From Acidobacteriota bacterium (GTDB taxonomy: Bacteria; Acidobacteriota; Polarisedimenticolia; Gp22-AA2), in assembly GCA_027297005.1 (NCBI GenBank), contig JAPUIN010000215.1:1-7631 (forward strand): a DNA stretch of 7,631 nt, read 5' to 3'. This document shows positions 1 to 7,469 of this stretch, in pieces (position 1 is the first letter of the stretch; each line of letters begins with the position of its first letter). A program made the position numbers and the translations under genes. The notes below the pieces were generated by a model, which was given only the letters and a program-made list of their open reading frames with translations, was not told where the DNA came from and did not search any database.

Positions 1-1102
1 CGGCCCAGGCGCCGAGCACAAGCAGCGCCGCAAGATCGAGGCCGTCGAGCCGCAGATCGGCATCCAGCCCAAAGCCGGTATCGGTGGGGGAGGTATCGAG
101 CGAGCCGGTCGCCTGACCTCCGAGCAGATGGGCCCGAAGCATCCGCAACGCGATGCCGTTCGCGATCGTCAGATCCGATTCGAGACCATCCAACTGAAGC
201 CCCCACAGGTTTAGAGCGGCCGCTCTCACGTCCCCCTGCGCGGTCACCACGCCGTCCTCCCAGGCACCGACGAGATTGCCCTCGAGACGGCCGGCGACAC
301 CGGCCGTCTCGGGAAAATAAGCGGCCAGTCGCGCAGCATCGAGACCGATTTTGACGGCGCCCTCGACACGCTGGCGCGCCCCGGCAACCAGGAAGATGTT
401 CCCGACCATCGCGAATCGATCACCATGTATCGCGAGCGGATCGAACCGGAGTCCTCCGGCTTCCAGGACGAAACGGGTCTCCCCTCTCAATTCCTGCCAT
501 ACCCCGTCCTCCGCCGACAACTCACCGCCCGTGAACTCCAGTCGTCCCTGTACCCCCCGGTCGCTCGACTCCGTTCCCGTTTCAAGCCGGATTCCCGACA
601 ACGATCCACGCGGTCCACCGCTCCACTTCACCTCGAGGCGGCCAGACCGCACCTCAACCCACCAGCCTGCGGCGATCCGCTGCGATCGTTCGAACGCCGC
701 GGCCAGCAGCGCGCCGTCTGGAAACCACTCGCGCCCCTCCGCCAGCGTCAACTGAACGAGGGGCCCTTCCACCACAATCCGCATCGGCCGTCGTCCACCA
801 TCCAGCAGGTAGCGCCATCCGGTCGTCGCGGTGATCGTCGGCGCGGCTCCGAGCGCACGGGAGCCACGGTTTCCGACCATCAACGCGCGCACTTTCTCGA
901 GCCGTATCGAAGGAGGAAAGGGGGAAATGCGAACCTTTCCGATCGAAATGTCCCCGCCGATGAACGCCGAGCCGCGATCCTCCAGATCCCCATGCAAGCG
1001 CTTCTCGATCCGACCCTTCAGCACGAACAGGCCGGCGATGACGATGGCGAGCGACCCGGCCACGACCAGACCTGCTCTGAGAATCGTTCTGCGTTTCGCC
1101 AT
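1..1102 (-). CDS. AsmA-like membrane-anchored envelope protein (partial, C-terminus beyond window)
   Basis: The frame is open from ATG 1102 to the left edge, giving 367 residues with no stop, so the C-terminus is missing. The N-terminus is a short basic stretch (MAKRR) followed by one hydrophobic helix at about residues 9-29, a signal anchor that would leave the rest in the periplasm. The remainder alternates short beta-strand-like segments with G-x-L-x-G turns. Examples are GDISIGKVRIS near 50-60, VEGPLVQL near 111-118, GRLEGNLVGAWEDG near 271-284, and a GG-x-ATGSLD motif near 328-336 followed by LDADLRLDGLDL. This pattern is typical of the AsmA/TamB/DUF748 group, whose long beta-rich proteins bridge the inner and outer membranes and are linked to phospholipid transport or outer-membrane assembly. 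A ribosome binding site (GGAGAGGAAAG) sits directly before the ATG. It is the third gene of the minus-strand run, 80 nt after the TPR-protease stop. The family call rests on pattern and architecture. The exact subfamily is unknown without the C-terminal half. Confidence 0.75.
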   Translation of the reverse strand, partial: MAKRRTILRAGLVVAGSLAIVIAGLFVLKGRIEKRLHGDLEDRGSAFIGGDISIGKVRISPFPPSIRLEKVRALMVGNRGSRALGAAPTITATTGWRYLLDGGRRPMRIVVEGPLVQLTLAEGREWFPDGALLAAAFERSQRIAAGWWVEVRSGRLEVKWSGGPRGSLSGIRLETGTESSDRGVQGRLEFTGGELSAEDGVWQELRGETRFVLEAGGLRFDPLAIHGDRFAMVGNIFLVAGARQRVEGAVKIGLDAARLAAYFPETAGVAGRLEGNLVGAWEDGVVTAQGDVRAAALNLWGLQLDGLESDLTIANGIALRMLRAHLLGGQATGSLDTSPTDTGFGLDADLRLDGLDLAALLVLGAWA

Positions 1103-1177: not shown

Positions 1178-1197
1178 GACGATCATCGACGATCGTC
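1178..1197 (-). other. Stem-loop over the stop codon of the TPR-protease gene
   Basis: GACGATC (1178-1184) and GATCGTC (1191-1197) are perfect 7-bp inverted arms around a 6-nt loop. They cover the TGA stop at 1185-1183 of the upstream gene. No T-run follows on the minus strand, so it does not look like an intrinsic terminator. It could be a transcript-stabilising or processing hairpin between the protease and AsmA-like genes, or chance in GC-rich DNA. Confidence 0.35.
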
Positions 1198-4116
1198 CGG
1201 CGCGTCGGGCACGGTTGACCCCGGCGGCCTGTTGTGCCGACGCGGGCGGAGCCCGCGCCCCTGGATCGGCCGGCCGTCGGGGCCCAGCATCTCGGCCATC
1301 GAGATGAGCACCGTCGCGCCGCCCGGGAGAACACGCGACGTCTGTGCGCGCCCCTTTCCGTACGTCGATTCTCCGACCAGCATACCGCGCCCGGTCATCT
1401 CCAGCGCGCGCGCCAGCCGTTCCGCGGCACTTGCCGTCTGCCCGTCGACGAGCACGACGATCGGGCCGTCGACCAGCGCTCCGTCTCCCCTCGTGATCTG
1501 TCGCTCCGCGCCGTCGGGCCCGACATCGACACCCGCGACCAAACCCGGACCGATCAGGAGATCGCCGATCGCATCGGCCACCCTTGAAAACCCGCCGCGG
1601 TTGCCGCGCAGGTCGAGGATCAGCCCCTCCTTCTCGCTGAACCTGAGAAGCGCCTGTCGAATCTGCTCGACCGCTGCCGGATCGGCAAAATTGCTCAACC
1701 GAATGTAACCGAGTCCGCCCTGAAGCTCTTCCATCGTCACGGTGCGACTCCCCGGTTTGACGCGACCCATCGAGTCAATCCGCACAACCTCACCGCGTCG
1801 CGCCAGGTAGATGGCAGCCGTCTCCTCCAGTCGGCGCAGCCGCGTGTGAGGATCCCCCAGTGAGCCGAGCATTTCGGCAATCGCGCGGTGGGCATCCTGG
1901 AGATCGATCAGATCGCCCCGGTAGCGATCCCGCCAGTCGAGCCAGTTCTGACCATTGAAGTGCCGATCGCGATTTTTGTCCCGCGCGAATCTCCACGCCT
2001 CGTGGTAGATCAGCTCGGGTGTCGGCGCGAGCATCCCCCGAAGCACGTGCCGCGCCTCCAGGTTCCTCCCCAGCGCCGCGAGCGTGATCGGATGCTGGCC
2101 GCGGGCCAGCCCGAAGTTGTCGGCGGGGTCCAGGAGCAGGGCGGTGGCGAACGCTTCGGCCGCCTCCTCGAGCCGGCCCCGATTCATGAGGGACACGCCG
2201 AGAATCGAAGCGAGCGGAGCCGAGTCGGGGAAGAGATGCAGTCCCTCGCGGGCCACCTCTTCCGAGGCGGCGGCCCTCCCGATGTTCAGCAGCGCCAGCG
2301 CGAGATCAATGCGGGCAGCGGAGCGCGTCGGATCGAGGTCGACGGTGCGGTGCCACTCCACGAGGGCCCCTTCGAGGTCCCGGTCAATCCGCGGCGCCGC
2401 CTCGGCGAGCGCGGAGCGCGCGATGGCCGAGTCCGGCTCAACCATGGTGGCCCGACGAGCGAGGCGGTACGCCTCTTCGTATCGTCCCAACCAGGTGGTC
2501 AGCCGCGAGAGCAGAACGAGGAGCGAGGCGTCGGCTCCCTCGAGCGTCTCGCCTCCTCCGGGCAACTCTCCGCGCGCCCTGTCGAATAGCCGACCGAGCA
2601 GTGGTGGGCGGACGAACATCAGGTCGCTCGCCACCTCGATCGTCCACGGATCGGTCGGATCGGCGCGCAGCGCACGATAAAGCGCCTCTGTCGCTCCGGC
2701 CCAGAAACCCGCCTCAGCCAGGATGAGCGCGTGGCGCCTGAGATCGGACGGCGCAACCTTCCCACGTTCGGCGTCGAGGGAGGTGTTCGCCCGCTGCACG
2801 GCGCGCTCCATCTGCTCACCGCCGGCTCGCCTGAGAAATGCGATGGACGCGCGCGTGGCGAAGAGGTCATCCGGCCTTGATTTCAGAAGTCTCGTCCAGG
2901 CGGCCTCCTCCTTCTCGAGACTTCCCGACGCCCGCGCGATCTCGGCGAGGGCGTAAAGCGCGACCGCGTCGTGCGGACGCGAACGCAACAACCGTCGAAA
3001 CACGCGCGCGGCGCCATCGTCCTCCCCCGCGAGGCGCAGGCTCACTCCGAGCCCGCGCTGCGCTGCGGGCCGATGCGGCTCGATCGCCAGCGCCTCGCGA
3101 TATGCTTCCTGAGCCGCCTTCTGATCGCCGATGATCGAGAGCAGCCGGCCCAGTTCGGTCCTGATCTCCGCACCGGGGGTCTCATCCCCCGCCTCGCGGA
3201 GCGCGCCGATCGCGGCCTGGACGATGGACAGCTCCTCGCGCTTCAACACCGCGGTTTCGTCGTCCGGCCTGTGATCGAGATAGCGATCCCAGTGCGCCAG
3301 AGCTCGCATCAAATCCCCCCGGCTCTCGGCGATGACAGCCAGCCCGGCGTGGGGGCGGTGGGCCGTCGGATTGGCCCGTAGCGCCCGGCGGAACATCTCT
3401 TCGGCCTCGGCGGTCCGGCCCGCCTGGCGTCGGGTCTCGGCAAGAGCAACCAGGAGGTCGTGACTTCGTGGCGGGCGGACCACGGCCTGCCCCCGTTCGA
3501 TAACACGCTCCGCCTCGTCGAAGCGAAATGCGTCGCGCTGGATCCTCGCGAGTCCCACATACGCTTCATGTCGCGCGGGGTCGAGTGACACCGCCGCTTC
3601 GAACCCGGTCATCGCCTCGCCGGCTCGACCGGCGCGCCGCAGCGTGTCGGCGATCAGCATCCGGATTCCGTAATGGGCGGGCGCCAGGCTCTGCGCCTCG
3701 CTGAATGTGGCGAGGGCCTCATCGATGCGGCCCCCGCGCCGCTCCTCTTCGCCACGACGCATCAGATCATCGATCGCGTCGACGGAGGATCGCCCGCCGC
3801 TCGAGGCACGCCCCTCTTCCTCTCTCAAATCGGCCGGTCGTGCATCCGGAGACGGGGTCTCGTCGGCCCTTGCCGGGCCAGGTTCCTGAATCGAGAACAC
3901 CACGATGGCGAAGAGGAGGGCGATTCCGATGGAACGAGGAGTCTGTCCGGGTATTGCGTGGGGCCGCGTTCGGGACGCCCTCCGCCGGGCGGGAAGAGCT
4001 CCGGGCAGACGGGATCCTCCGGCCGTTCGATCGAATCCGGGAGGGGTGCGCACTTCGCTCGAGGTCGTCCTGATCACGTGACCAACTAAGGTACGGTGGG
4101 GGCCGCCGCAAGTCAA
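1183..4116 (-). CDS. Exported TPR-repeat protein with C-terminal S41 (C-terminal processing) peptidase domain, no PDZ
   Basis: The longest reading is 977 residues. A hydrophobic core at 63-75 followed by PARA-DE suggests a signal peptide cut after A84, so the protein is probably periplasmic. Residues about 113-700 hold roughly 14-15 TPR-like helical pairs, many with 34-residue spacing and ending in AL-x-x-x-P. Residues 725-758 match the cap of S41 peptidases, ending in LGDPHT (753-758). The catalytic core follows: GLGYIRLSNF (801-810), DLRGNRGG (835-842), the nucleophile region QTASAAE with Ser896, YGKG with Lys921, and IQGRGLRP (951-958). Ser896 and Lys921 are 25 residues apart, the same spacing as the Ser-Lys dyad of E. 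coli Tsp/Prc, so the enzyme should be active. Only about 40 residues separate DPHT from the core, too few for the PDZ domain of about 90 residues usual in CtpA/Prc. It is the second gene after the histidine kinase (37-nt gap). The start is uncertain: TTG 4116 and GTG 4053 lack a clear Shine-Dalgarno, while CTG 4008 has GGAGGA six bases upstream. Confidence 0.9.
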   Translation of the reverse strand: MTCGGPHRTLVGHVIRTTSSEVRTPPGFDRTAGGSRLPGALPARRRASRTRPHAIPGQTPRSIGIALLFAIVVFSIQEPGPARADETPSPDARPADLREEEGRASSGGRSSVDAIDDLMRRGEEERRGGRIDEALATFSEAQSLAPAHYGIRMLIADTLRRAGRAGEAMTGFEAAVSLDPARHEAYVGLARIQRDAFRFDEAERVIERGQAVVRPPRSHDLLVALAETRRQAGRTAEAEEMFRRALRANPTAHRPHAGLAVIAESRGDLMRALAHWDRYLDHRPDDETAVLKREELSIVQAAIGALREAGDETPGAEIRTELGRLLSIIGDQKAAQEAYREALAIEPHRPAAQRGLGVSLRLAGEDDGAARVFRRLLRSRPHDAVALYALAEIARASGSLEKEEAAWTRLLKSRPDDLFATRASIAFLRRAGGEQMERAVQRANTSLDAERGKVAPSDLRRHALILAEAGFWAGATEALYRALRADPTDPWTIEVASDLMFVRPPLLGRLFDRARGELPGGGETLEGADASLLVLLSRLTTWLGRYEEAYRLARRATMVEPDSAIARSALAEAAPRIDRDLEGALVEWHRTVDLDPTRSAARIDLALALLNIGRAAASEEVAREGLHLFPDSAPLASILGVSLMNRGRLEEAAEAFATALLLDPADNFGLARGQHPITLAALGRNLEARHVLRGMLAPTPELIYHEAWRFARDKNRDRHFNGQNWLDWRDRYRGDLIDLQDAHRAIAEMLGSLGDPHTRLRRLEETAAIYLARRGEVVRIDSMGRVKPGSRTVTMEELQGGLGYIRLSNFADPAAVEQIRQALLRFSEKEGLILDLRGNRGGFSRVADAIGDLLIGPGLVAGVDVGPDGAERQITRGDGALVDGPIVVLVDGQTASAAERLARALEMTGRGMLVGESTYGKGRAQTSRVLPGGATVLISMAEMLGPDGRPIQGRGLRPRRHNRPPGSTVPDAPDDRR

Positions 4117-4153: not shown

Positions 4154-6337
4154 TCAGGCGGCCTGTAATCGGCCGCTGAGCTGGTTGAGGACGGTGAGAA
4201 CTTCCTCCAGGCGGAACGGTTTGTTCAGGTAGGGAGCACCGGTGCGCTGAAAGAAGAGCTGCACTTCGGGGTTCGCCAGGTCGCCGGTCGAGAAAACGAA
4301 ACGTCTCGCCATCGCAGGCTTCTTGCGACAGATGCGATCGTAGAGTCCCCGCCCATCGAGGCCCGGCATCTTGAGATCGCTCAGCACCAGGTCGTAATCA
4401 CGCTCGGTCGCGAGCTGCAGCGCCTCCTGACCATTGCGTGCCCTGTCGACCCGGTGCCCGACACCCTCGAGAAAATCGCACAGGAGCTCCAGAAGGATCG
4501 CCTCGTCATCGACGACAAGAAGATAAAGCGGCCGGTCGGCGCCGGTCCAGGCCTGCGGTTGTGCCTCGGTTGACTTCGCTTCCTTCTCCTGCGCGAGGAA
4601 GGGCAATTCAATAATGAACGTGGTCCCCTCGCCGAGAACACTTTCCGCCGCCATGGAGCCCAGATGGTCCTCCATGATGGCGCGCGAGAGGCTGAGCCCG
4701 AGCCCGGTCCCTTTGCCGGCCGACTTCGTCGTGTAGAAGGAGTCGAAAATCCGGGCGAGTCGGTTCTTCGCGATGCCCGGTCCGGTGTCGATGATCCGCG
4801 CCCACACCACGCCGTCTCCCTGCCCGGTCTCCACGGTGAGGCGCCTCGCGCGCCCGGCGATCTCCATCATCGCCTGGTGCGCGTTGTTGATGATGTTCAG
4901 AATCACCTGCTGCATCTGATGGAAGTCCAGCATCGTCTCGGGCAGGAACTCGTCGTACCGCCGGTCCACCTCGATGTCGTCGACCTGGAGCTGGTAGGAA
5001 CGGAGTTCCAGGACGCTATCGATCACCCGGTTGAGGCTGCACCCGGTTTTCTCCGGCTCATGGCGCCTCGCGAACCCCAGCAGGTTCTGGACAATCTTCT
5101 GGCAACGGATCGCCTCAGAGTAGATCTTCTCGAGGTTTTTCTTCTCCTTCGCGCCGACATCGCTGCTCTGGAGAAGCTGCGCGTAGCCGATCACTCCCGC
5201 GAGCGGATTGTTGAGCTCGTGGGCGACGCCCGATATCAGCTGGCCGATGGCCGACATCTTCTCCGACTGCATCAGCTGATCCTGAGCGCCGCGCAGCCCG
5301 GCCTCAGCCTTCTTCACCGCCTGATCGAGATGCTTTGTCTCGATGGCGTGCGCCATCTGGCTGGTGAACAGCTCGAGCGGCGAGAGTATCTCGGCGGTCG
5401 GCTCATCGGGGCTGTTTGGATCCCCGAGGACCAGCATGCCGACGAGGCGCTCCCCCGAGCCGCGCAGAGGGACGATCAGAACTAACCCCCCTTTGTGATC
5501 CGCGTCCGCCCGAACGGCAAGCCCGAGGCGCTCCCCCTGCGGAACCGGGGAAACGAGATACGAGTTGCCGAGTCGCGTCCCTTCCCGCAACAGGAGATCC
5601 CGATCGGTGGGCTTGAGCTTGCGCGTATGAAAGGCATCGATCTCATCGTCGCTCAGACCGGTGAAGAACCACTGGTAGTCACGTCCACCCGTGTCGGTGA
5701 GCGTCAGAATCGCGCGACTGTACCCGGAGTGCTCGTGGATTTCCTGAAGGAAGAGTCGGCAGGCCTCGTTGAGATCGTTCGCGGCGTGAATGAGGCTCGA
5801 TTGACGACTGAAGGAGGCCAGCTGCCGGTACGCCCCGCGCATGACTTCATCAGCCGCCTCCTCGCCACGCGCAGCGTCCGGATGAAAGGATGCCGGCGGC
5901 CCACCAGTGGCGGTTGCCAGCGCCAGCGCGACGATCCCGGAGACGCGTTCCAATTGCCGGATCCCCCTCCCCTCAAGACAGTGAGGCGTAGAGGCGCCGA
6001 GGATCAGCACCCCGAACGGCTCCCCTCCCCTTCTGAGCGGCAGGAAGGCGACATCCCGGATTCCCTGACGATAGAGGACCTTCTCTTCGCTGTATTGAAA
6101 TTCCCCTCCGAGCGTCGGCAGGAGTTCCGTCTTCCACCGCTTCATCACCTCGGCGCAGCAGGATTCCTCCCACTCCAGACTCCAAGTTTGGGCATCAGTC
6201 TGCTGCGGGTGAAGAGGGATGACGGTCAGGGTCCCGCCATCCTGAGACGGCAAGGCCAGATCGATGCGATCGCAGGGGACGAGATTGACGATCTCCCGGC
6301 AGATTTCGAGTAAAAGCTCGTGAGGGGGGACTGCCAT
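4154..6337 (-). CDS. Hybrid sensor histidine kinase: GAF-GAF-HisKA-HATPase_c-receiver
   Basis: 727 residues with no membrane segment, so a cytoplasmic sensor. Residues about 1-145 and 168-335 look like two GAF-type sensory domains, each ending in the V-x-x-L-x-LG pattern before a helix. A charged helical linker (about 335-360) leads to the H-box, where SAIGQLISGVAHELNNPLAG places the phospho-accepting histidine at His373. The ATPase domain shows the N-box around N481/N484/N485, the G1 box DTGPGI (517-522), the F-box FDSFYTTK (531-538) and the G2 box GKGTGLGLSL (541-550). A receiver domain fills about 604-720 with acidic pair D610/D611, phospho-acceptor D654, T684 and K706 in NKPF. All residues for autophosphorylation and transfer to D654 are present. 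No separate response regulator, HPt or output domain is encoded in the window, so the downstream partner is unknown. The ATG at 6337 has a strong ribosome site (AGGAAGAGGA, 6350-6341). It is the first gene of the run that continues with the TPR-protease and AsmA-like genes. The ligand of the GAF domains cannot be read from the sequence. Confidence 0.95.
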   Translation of the reverse strand: MAVPPHELLLEICREIVNLVPCDRIDLALPSQDGGTLTVIPLHPQQTDAQTWSLEWEESCCAEVMKRWKTELLPTLGGEFQYSEEKVLYRQGIRDVAFLPLRRGGEPFGVLILGASTPHCLEGRGIRQLERVSGIVALALATATGGPPASFHPDAARGEEAADEVMRGAYRQLASFSRQSSLIHAANDLNEACRLFLQEIHEHSGYSRAILTLTDTGGRDYQWFFTGLSDDEIDAFHTRKLKPTDRDLLLREGTRLGNSYLVSPVPQGERLGLAVRADADHKGGLVLIVPLRGSGERLVGMLVLGDPNSPDEPTAEILSPLELFTSQMAHAIETKHLDQAVKKAEAGLRGAQDQLMQSEKMSAIGQLISGVAHELNNPLAGVIGYAQLLQSSDVGAKEKKNLEKIYSEAIRCQKIVQNLLGFARRHEPEKTGCSLNRVIDSVLELRSYQLQVDDIEVDRRYDEFLPETMLDFHQMQQVILNIINNAHQAMMEIAGRARRLTVETGQGDGVVWARIIDTGPGIAKNRLARIFDSFYTTKSAGKGTGLGLSLSRAIMEDHLGSMAAESVLGEGTTFIIELPFLAQEKEAKSTEAQPQAWTGADRPLYLLVVDDEAILLELLCDFLEGVGHRVDRARNGQEALQLATERDYDLVLSDLKMPGLDGRGLYDRICRKKPAMARRFVFSTGDLANPEVQLFFQRTGAPYLNKPFRLEEVLTVLNQLSGRLQAA

Positions 6338-6545: not shown

Positions 6546-7025
6546 ATGCGTGCCAGGCGCAGGCTCGGGAATGGATGGATGGTGGCGGGGGCGTTCGGCC
6601 TGGCGCTGCTCGCGTCCGGCGGGACGGTCTCCTCCGGCGAGCAGTCGTCCGAGAATCAGGGGGATCTTTACATCGCGACCGACAGGGTGGTCGGCTTCGT
6701 CCCCCTCAAGGTCTATGTCTACGGTAGGATACGAAGCGGAACACCGGCCCGGATCGAACTCTGCCGATCCGAGGTGCGGTCGATCATGGCCGATACGCGC
6801 CGCCGCCCCGACGCAAGGCGCGATGCCATTCGCTCTATCCGCGGTGAAACGAGCCGCCCCGCGACCTCTTGCACCGCAGCGCGCCTGGTCGAGACCCCGA
6901 ACGGCTACGATCACGCCTACGAGATGCGATTCGACCGTCCCGGAACCTACCAGGTCCGGCTCATGATGACGGACCAATCAGGGCGAAGATCGATGTCGAA
7001 TACCGTCCAGGTCCGCGCGTTTTAG
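6546..7025 (+). CDS. Small secreted protein with a single PKD/Ig-like domain
   Basis: 159 residues. The N-terminus is basic (MRARRR) with a hydrophobic core at about 11-24 and a small-residue region after it, fitting a Sec signal peptide cut somewhere around 24-31; there is no lipobox cysteine. The mature part begins with a strand like LYIATDRVVGFVPLKVYVYG (41-60), resembling the opening of PKD/Ig-like domains (an A-x-x-x-x-G-x-x-P-L-x-V pattern). It ends with FDRPGTYQVRLMMTDQSG (129-146) and NTVQVRAF, the typical F-x-x-P-G-x-Y-x-V-x-L-x-x-x-D closing strands. Two cysteines, C73 and C109, could form a disulfide. Such domains usually mediate binding rather than catalysis. The ATG follows GGGGGGAA with a 6-nt gap. 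It is transcribed away from the histidine kinase out of a shared AT-rich region, and converges with the lipoprotein gene 39 nt beyond its stop. No specific function is recognised. Confidence 0.7.
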   Translation: MRARRRLGNGWMVAGAFGLALLASGGTVSSGEQSSENQGDLYIATDRVVGFVPLKVYVYGRIRSGTPARIELCRSEVRSIMADTRRRPDARRDAIRSIRGETSRPATSCTAARLVETPNGYDHAYEMRFDRPGTYQVRLMMTDQSGRRSMSNTVQVRAF

Positions 7026-7064: not shown

Positions 7065-7469
7065 CTATTTAGAAAGCGGCTTCTTAAGGGCCTCCTGCAC
7101 CTCGCTGCGGTAGGTCCTGTCGGAGGTGAGGGCGGCGATCACCTCGGGCCGGATCTCTTCATCGGAGGTGATCTGCCTGATCAGCTCGCCACGGATCGTC
7201 TTGTCGGCGGTCAGCCGATTGATGGCCATGGTCTTGATCGAGGTGTCACCCAGGAGGGTTTCGGCCAGCTCGACCTTGGTGTCGTCGGAACGGGTCAGGC
7301 GTTCCATGATGTCCTGCTTGGCCACCGGATCAGCCAGCAGCCTGTTGATCAACTGGTCCTTGGTGTTCGGGTTCATGACCAGTTCGTCGATGCCGGAGCT
7401 GCAGGCAAACGCTCCGGCGAGCACCAGGGATGCCACGACCAACGCGAGGGTTCTGCCAACTGATCTCAT
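7065..7469 (-). CDS. Probable lipoprotein with seven tandem 14-residue helical repeats
   Basis: 134 residues. A hydrophobic signal (about 7-22) ends in AFA-C23-SS. The cysteine position suits lipoprotein processing, although Ala at -3 and Phe at -2 are less usual than the standard L-A-[GA]-C. Ser at +2 would favour the outer membrane under the E. coli Lol rule. From residue 33 to 130 the chain divides without gaps into seven 14-residue units (33-46, 47-60, 61-74, 75-88, 89-102, 103-116, 117-130). The approximate consensus is D-x-x-[IT]-[KR]-x-[ED]-[LIV]-[IA]-x-x-[LI]-[TL]-[AS], for example DKTIRGELIRQITS and DEEIRPEVIAALTS. Each unit is probably one short amphipathic helix capped by the Asp. 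The ATG 7469 has AAGGAGA (7484-7478) eight bases upstream. I do not recognise a named family. The repeats suggest a structural or binding role at the membrane. Confidence 0.8.
   Translation of the reverse strand: MRSVGRTLALVVASLVLAGAFACSSGIDELVMNPNTKDQLINRLLADPVAKQDIMERLTRSDDTKVELAETLLGDTSIKTMAINRLTADKTIRGELIRQITSDEEIRPEVIAALTSDRTYRSEVQEALKKPLSK

Follow-up and report, generated by a model that had tools for sequence, protein, structure and literature searches.

In the closest described systems, a tetratricopeptide repeat (TPR) adaptor and its protease are two separate chains. Escherichia coli NlpI, a dimeric lipoprotein with four TPRs, partners Prc, which has a PDZ domain and additional helical domains (PMC5686067); the Prc PDZ domain is reported to be stimulatory, not inhibitory (PMC6686036). 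In Pseudomonas aeruginosa, LbcA is described as a lipoprotein whose 11 TPRs follow an N-terminal adaptor domain, and its protease CtpA as a PDZ-containing hexamer (PMC8764530, PMC11021448). The inner surface of LbcA is lined by TPR-A helices (PMC8764530), and by binding CtpA at its N-terminal dimerisation region LbcA shifts the PDZ domain and the cap (PMC11021448). A TPR domain and a protease share one chain in periplasmic E. coli BepA, an M48 metalloprotease whose two conserved TPR-cavity arginines, R466 and R470, are reported to be needed for full function and BamA degradation (PMC7950410). Here we analyze TPR-S41, encoded in a 7,631-nucleotide stretch of Acidobacteriota DNA (contig JAPUIN010000215.1, hereafter the window), in which TPRs precede a protease of peptidase family S41 in a single chain that contains no detectable PDZ domain.

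Pfam Peptidase_S41 (PF03572) matches TPR-S41 residues 802-958 (E 4.7e-32; 111.3 bits, cut-off 24). The S41 fold is present in an AlphaFold2 model of the protein (pLDDT 93, pTM 0.91), and the core fold is common to CtpA, CtpB, Prc and the D1 protease (D1P). All Pfam matches above cut-off are of TPR type or S41; no M48 domain is found, unlike in BepA, and no PDZ family appears in Pfam at E<=1. The model has no PDZ fold either, only a short linker at the usual PDZ site. This linker stretch (model residues 665-703) is 39 residues long in 110 of 117 family members, 38 in four and 40 in three. Model numbering plus 96 gives the numbering of the open reading frame (ORF), so that model residue 800 is Ser896. 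The gene and its protease part are composed as follows:

1183..4116, minus strand (4116 to 1183): TPR-S41 gene, 977 codons from TTG 4116 (ORF list, Pfam, start codons, N-termini of relatives)
1834..2028, minus strand: N-terminal helical region of the protease, model 601-665, ending LGDPHTRLR (alignment with the first domain of D1P, AlphaFold2 model, VIA-align)
1723..1833, minus strand: linker at the place of the PDZ domain, model 666-702, without PDZ (AlphaFold2 model)
1243..1722, minus strand: S41 catalytic core, model 703-862 (Pfam, D1P alignment, VIA-align)
1429..1431, minus strand: catalytic Ser896 (model 800), kept in 115/115 alignable rows of 117, the other two being gaps
1354..1356, minus strand: catalytic Lys921 (model 825), kept in 114/114 alignable rows of 117, the other three being gaps
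1342..1344, minus strand: Gln925 (model 829), the third residue proposed for CtpB, kept in 114/114 alignable rows of 117

Ser896 and Lys921 align with the D1P motifs and are 25 residues apart, which is the Tsp/CtpA spacing. Both are invariant in the 73 rows of alignment A1, and the motif DLRGNxGG is retained in 73/73 members; the gaps at the Ser, Lys and Gln columns come from P0266, P0275 and P0283. Mutation of the Gln925 equivalent in CtpA (Q331A) is reported to have only a minor effect (PMC11021448). A preliminary description of the window, made by reading the DNA alone, had proposed a TPR scaffold fused to an S41 protease without PDZ, a dyad spaced as in Tsp/Prc and about 40 residues at the PDZ site, all of which Pfam, the predicted structure with its intact S41 fold, and the relatives bear out. 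Its coordinates did not give the strand, which is minus, and it placed LGDPHT at the end of an S41 cap; the motif is there but aligns with LDDPFTR of D1P, and hence closes the N-terminal helical region instead.

The missing PDZ domain is not a failure of Pfam, which finds a PDZ above cut-off in six of eight other S41 proteins from seven TPR-S41 genomes (weak in one, none in one). RBP3 and PDB entries 8vcb and 4l8k resemble TPR-S41 in being S41 folds without PDZ; in the 8vcb and 4l8k matches the N-terminal region leads into the core with only about 20 extra residues, which leaves no room for a PDZ domain. The 8vcb and 4l8k chains have 320-330 residues and RBP3 contains several S41 modules; a TPR solenoid is reported for none of them in the match rows. 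TPR-S41 scores 101.1 bits with the NCBIfam prc model TIGR00225 (curated cut-off 218.6) and 25.5 bits with the NlpI model (cut-off 250). Because a PDZ domain was tested for and not found, we file TPR-S41 as a member of peptidase family S41 and not as a standard carboxyl-terminal processing protease (CTP). S41 folds that lack a PDZ domain are already known, and so, separately, is a protease chain with TPRs (BepA); in the literature searched we found no report of a chain that joins TPRs to S41 without a PDZ domain. The architecture itself, a PDZ-less S41 protease with a TPR scaffold in one chain, is firm.

TPR-S41 without PDZ is a discrete family. The S41 part, used as the query of a protein search, returned at least 73 members (P0001-P0073) that combine TPRs and S41 without PDZ by our own reading of precomputed Pfam lists, and a second search from a distant member returned at least 44 more (P0241-P0284, down to 2.8e-56), including the partial P0283, whose list lacks S41. 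Among the matches listed, E-values in the first search pass from 5.6e-73 (P0072) and 2.8e-40 (P0073) to 6e-26 for the non-member P0074. In the second search the first match beyond the family, again among those listed, combines TPRs with a PDZ and a trypsin domain; its E-value (1.4e-21) is weaker than the family edge by about 35 orders of magnitude, and PDZ-bearing CTPs come after it. Each search scored about 8,000 candidates, of which the best 120 are listed, and the family may therefore be larger. The phylum that includes Terracidiphilus (L063, G001; Acidobacteriota) was sampled with 396 genomes; 12 of them match TPR-S41 at E<=1e-30, and all 12 belong to a single class, for which 41 genomes were searched. 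This class is probably Polarisedimenticolia: some member proteins have Candidatus Polarisedimenticolia, a class of Acidobacteriota, as source name, and a few odd names (Cryosericum, Saccharimonadales) keep the assignment at this grade. Each of the 12 genomes has 4-8 S41 matches, TPR-S41 included, and 11 have an S41 match above 168 bits.

A scan of genome contigs with the single window protein found no relative. When the scan was repeated with an alignment, the best 80 loci, those listed, matched mostly in the S41 part (26-42% identity). A crude TPR-consensus search, positive in 73/73 TPR-S41 members, found TPRs in none of 136 S41 ORFs or proteins (these 80 loci and the non-members P0074-P0120). 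P0074, an S41 protein of 761 residues, has repeats at its N-terminus that resemble TPRs by eye, and a long low-complexity stretch before the core; neither its Pfam list nor the consensus search shows TPRs. P0285 (1033 residues) combines TPRs, a trypsin-like domain, PDZ and S41 in its precomputed Pfam list, and is thus a TPR-S41 chain with a PDZ domain.

Pfam TPR matches span residues ~113-700, in agreement with the preliminary description; its count of 14-15 units is replaced by 16 TPR-like helix pairs and a lone helix, as counted by our own pairing in the model:

2038..3786, minus strand: TPR solenoid, 16 TPR-like helix pairs (model 15-597) and a lone long helix (191-216) (Pfam, model, groove conservation)
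3427..3741, minus strand: arginine ladder at groove position 12 of TPR1-4, with codons R30 (3739-3741), R64 (3637-3639), R98 (3535-3537) and R134 (3427-3429), model numbering

In the AlphaFold2 model the N-terminal helical region of the protease is continuous with the 16-unit solenoid, and the region matching the LbcA-CtpA contact is covalently continuous with the TPR end, where LbcA and CtpA are two chains. Groove-lining TPR positions have a mean conservation of 0.484, against 0.345 for the outer positions of helix B and 0.532 for structural positions (Mann-Whitney p 8e-9, treating positions as independent). Among close members (P0001-P0072), arginine occupies R30, R64, R98 and R134 in 70, 71, 71 and 71 of 72. 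Distant members (P0241-P0267) have arginine or lysine there in 23, 21, 21 and 22 of 27, four of the 27 being gapped at the ladder; P0073 and P0268-P0284 (18/117) were left out of this count. R228 in TPR6 is arginine in 72/72 close members and arginine or lysine in 21/27 distant ones. Mean identity to P0001 is 47% (close) and 26% (distant) in the TPR part, and 63% and 45% in the S41 part. The arginine ladder in the TPR1-4 groove, common to both clades counted, is new here.

The N-terminus of TPR-S41 probably carries a signal peptide. TTG 4116 is a doubtful start; GTG 4077, judged by eye against the relatives, is the likelier one:

3865..4077, minus strand: probable signal peptide if the start is GTG 4077, cleavage near ARA/DE (read from the sequence)

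The database gene call begins at TTG 3828, 96 codons past TTG 4116, and the signal peptide is therefore lost from the annotated protein. The annotated starts of P0003, P0024, P0032 and P0045 likewise lie only at the TPRs. Hydropathy reaches a maximum of 2.9 within the first 100 residues, a test that discriminated poorly within the family. A lipobox-like motif occurs in 3/73 members (by a crude pattern, with gene starts often uncertain).

We favor with some confidence a reading in which TPR-S41 is an adaptor and a protease in cis, with an open, PDZ-less active site and selectivity through predicted binding in the TPR groove. TPR-S41 would be a secreted, probably periplasmic, Ser-Lys protease. 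A laboratory-made PDZ-deletion mutant of Bacillus subtilis CtpB, likewise an S41 core without PDZ, is reported to be a constitutively active, open-gate protease; it has no TPRs and has lost its substrate selectivity (PMC3808539). Without a PDZ lid, the active site of TPR-S41 may be open in the same way. Selectivity would then come from the TPR groove: the arginine-lined repeats 1-4 may hold an envelope substrate, whose tail would enter the fused protease. It is likely that the groove picks substrates for an always-open protease, and TPR-S41 probably works like an adaptor-CTP pair, performing in cis the role that NlpI-Prc and LbcA-CtpA have in trans. The likely clients, we infer, would be wall hydrolases or other envelope proteins. 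The preliminary description had likewise suggested that adaptor and protease may be merged, with TPRs replacing PDZ in substrate recognition and gating; the one-chain architecture stands, and selection by the groove is the part that is only likely.

Several points weigh against this reading. The groove face of the solenoid is conserved, but the statistic takes positions as independent and helix A may simply be the more conserved helix. The Prc PDZ domain is stimulatory, and loss of a PDZ domain therefore need not mean an open site. The apparently active-like geometry of the TPR-S41 site is that of a predicted model and involves small differences in r.m.s.d. Finally, the groove charges N27, E88, E131 and R197 of the close clade are mostly not retained in the distant clade; unlike charges could reflect different clients.

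Two of the alternatives draw on the gene neighborhood. In the window, a hybrid kinase, TPR-S41 and a TamB-like N-terminus follow one another on the minus strand, the last two 80 bases apart, and the five close-clade loci L101-L105 keep this order on one strand (5/5). Window proteins share 48-57% (kinase) and 32-37% (TamB N-terminus, tblastn) identity with these loci, in which the TamB gene is part of a longer fusion:

4154..6337, minus strand: hybrid histidine kinase, GAF-GAF-HisKA-HATPase-REC, directly upstream of TPR-S41 (Pfam)
2..1102, minus strand: N-terminal fragment of an AsmA/TamB-like gene, downstream (weak DUF748 match, tblastn to L101-L105)
L101:11960-18310; L102:1164-7742, minus strand; L103:11383-17847; L105:1-6519, minus strand, cut at the very end: TamB-POTRA-Omp85 ORFs
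L101:10540-11889; L104:4077-5351, minus strand: sodium/calcium-exchanger gene between TPR-S41 and TamB (Pfam)
L102:7765-9042, minus strand; L103:10100-11371: similar exchanger-like ORF, by eye

In Pfam the fusion (L101, L102, L103, L105) is a single ORF of 2116-2192 codons that joins TamB to four or five POTRA stretches and to an Omp85 barrel, whereas the TamB-TamA bridge of Proteobacteria consists of two proteins. The C-terminal 1117 residues of the fusion have matches at E<=1e-60 in 33 of the 41 genomes of the class; in 24 of the 33 the match falls inside an open frame 2,000 codons or longer. By our own reading TamB and Omp85 occur together in 119 of the best 120 of 230 protein matches. A 2015 survey reports a BamA-TamB gene order in Acidobacteria operons, and the word fusion is not used in the text available (PMC4494059); we found no description of the single-chain fusion in the literature searched. 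The synteny of TPR-S41 with the hybrid kinase and the TamB-Omp85 fusion, seen in the window's clade only, is new here.

One possible but unlikely alternative is that the solenoid docks the protease on an envelope machine such as the neighboring TamB-Omp85, where it would clear stalled outer-membrane clients as BepA does at BAM, with location providing selectivity. The TamB-Omp85 gene follows TPR-S41 on the same strand, both in the window and in 5/5 close-clade loci, and the TPR-cavity arginines of BepA offer a precedent (PMC7950410). Yet TamB-Omp85 adjoins TPR-S41 only in the close clade. In distant-clade genomes it is on another contig (G094, G139, G073, and G210 with a partial match) or was not found (G179, G281, G112). 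Conversely, 24 genomes of the class carry TamB-Omp85 but show no TPR-S41 at the threshold used; one of these, G297, has a close-clade copy of TamB-Omp85. Among the matches listed, 13 contigs (first search) and five (second) are common to TPR-S41 members and TamB-Omp85 proteins; these coincidences mean shared contigs, not adjacency.

A less probable alternative is that the TPR part is a sensor through which a small signal, lipid-derived or of another kind, or else a regulatory protein switches the protease on or off, replacing PDZ gating and not substrate recognition. In P. aeruginosa, CtpA activity is reported to fall when TamB, YhdP or YdbH is overproduced, and the same paper discusses a lipid-derived ligand for the TPR adaptor (PMC12569750). 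The groove arginines could, judging from the sequence, bind phosphate or carboxylate. The TamB-type neighbor fits this AsmA-family effect as a genomic parallel, although synteny in one clade is not proof. It counts against the sensor that the TamB-Omp85 synteny is confined to one clade, whereas the arginine ladder occurs in both clades counted. We suggest only tentatively that TPR-S41, an always-open, PDZ-less protease encoded between a kinase and the one-chain TamB-Omp85 bridge, couples envelope proteolysis to lipid or outer-membrane traffic, its arginine groove selecting clients or sensing a lipid-derived signal, as a cis form of the control proposed for NlpI-Prc and LbcA-CtpA. That the S41 part is a non-catalytic binding module on a TPR scaffold, as in RBP3 (which we take to be a binding protein and which, matching without PDZ, is among the best PDB sequence matches), is very improbable given the invariant Ser, Lys and Gln and the retained DLRGNxGG motif.

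If TPR-S41 is an adaptor-protease in cis, an adaptor and a protease that are separate elsewhere could be studied as one molecule in some Acidobacteriota. The natural PDZ-less chain would be a system of fixed stoichiometry, in which capture and cutting could be split by mutations.

The remaining neighbors vary. The exchanger-like gene of the close-clade loci is absent from the window, and in L105 an ORF without Pfam match lies between TPR-S41 and TamB. In the distant clade, the kinase adjoins TPR-S41 in L107, and one oppositely oriented ORF, permease-like by eye, separates the two in L108 and L111. Three short contigs, L106, L109 and L112, showed no kinase, and in L110 the sole kinase match is partial and lies ~8 kb downstream. 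Upstream of the kinase, the window encodes a small protein with a weak PKD match (6546-7025, plus strand) and a small lipoprotein-like protein (7065-7469, minus strand); both genes are kept in four of the five close-clade loci, the fifth contig ending before them.
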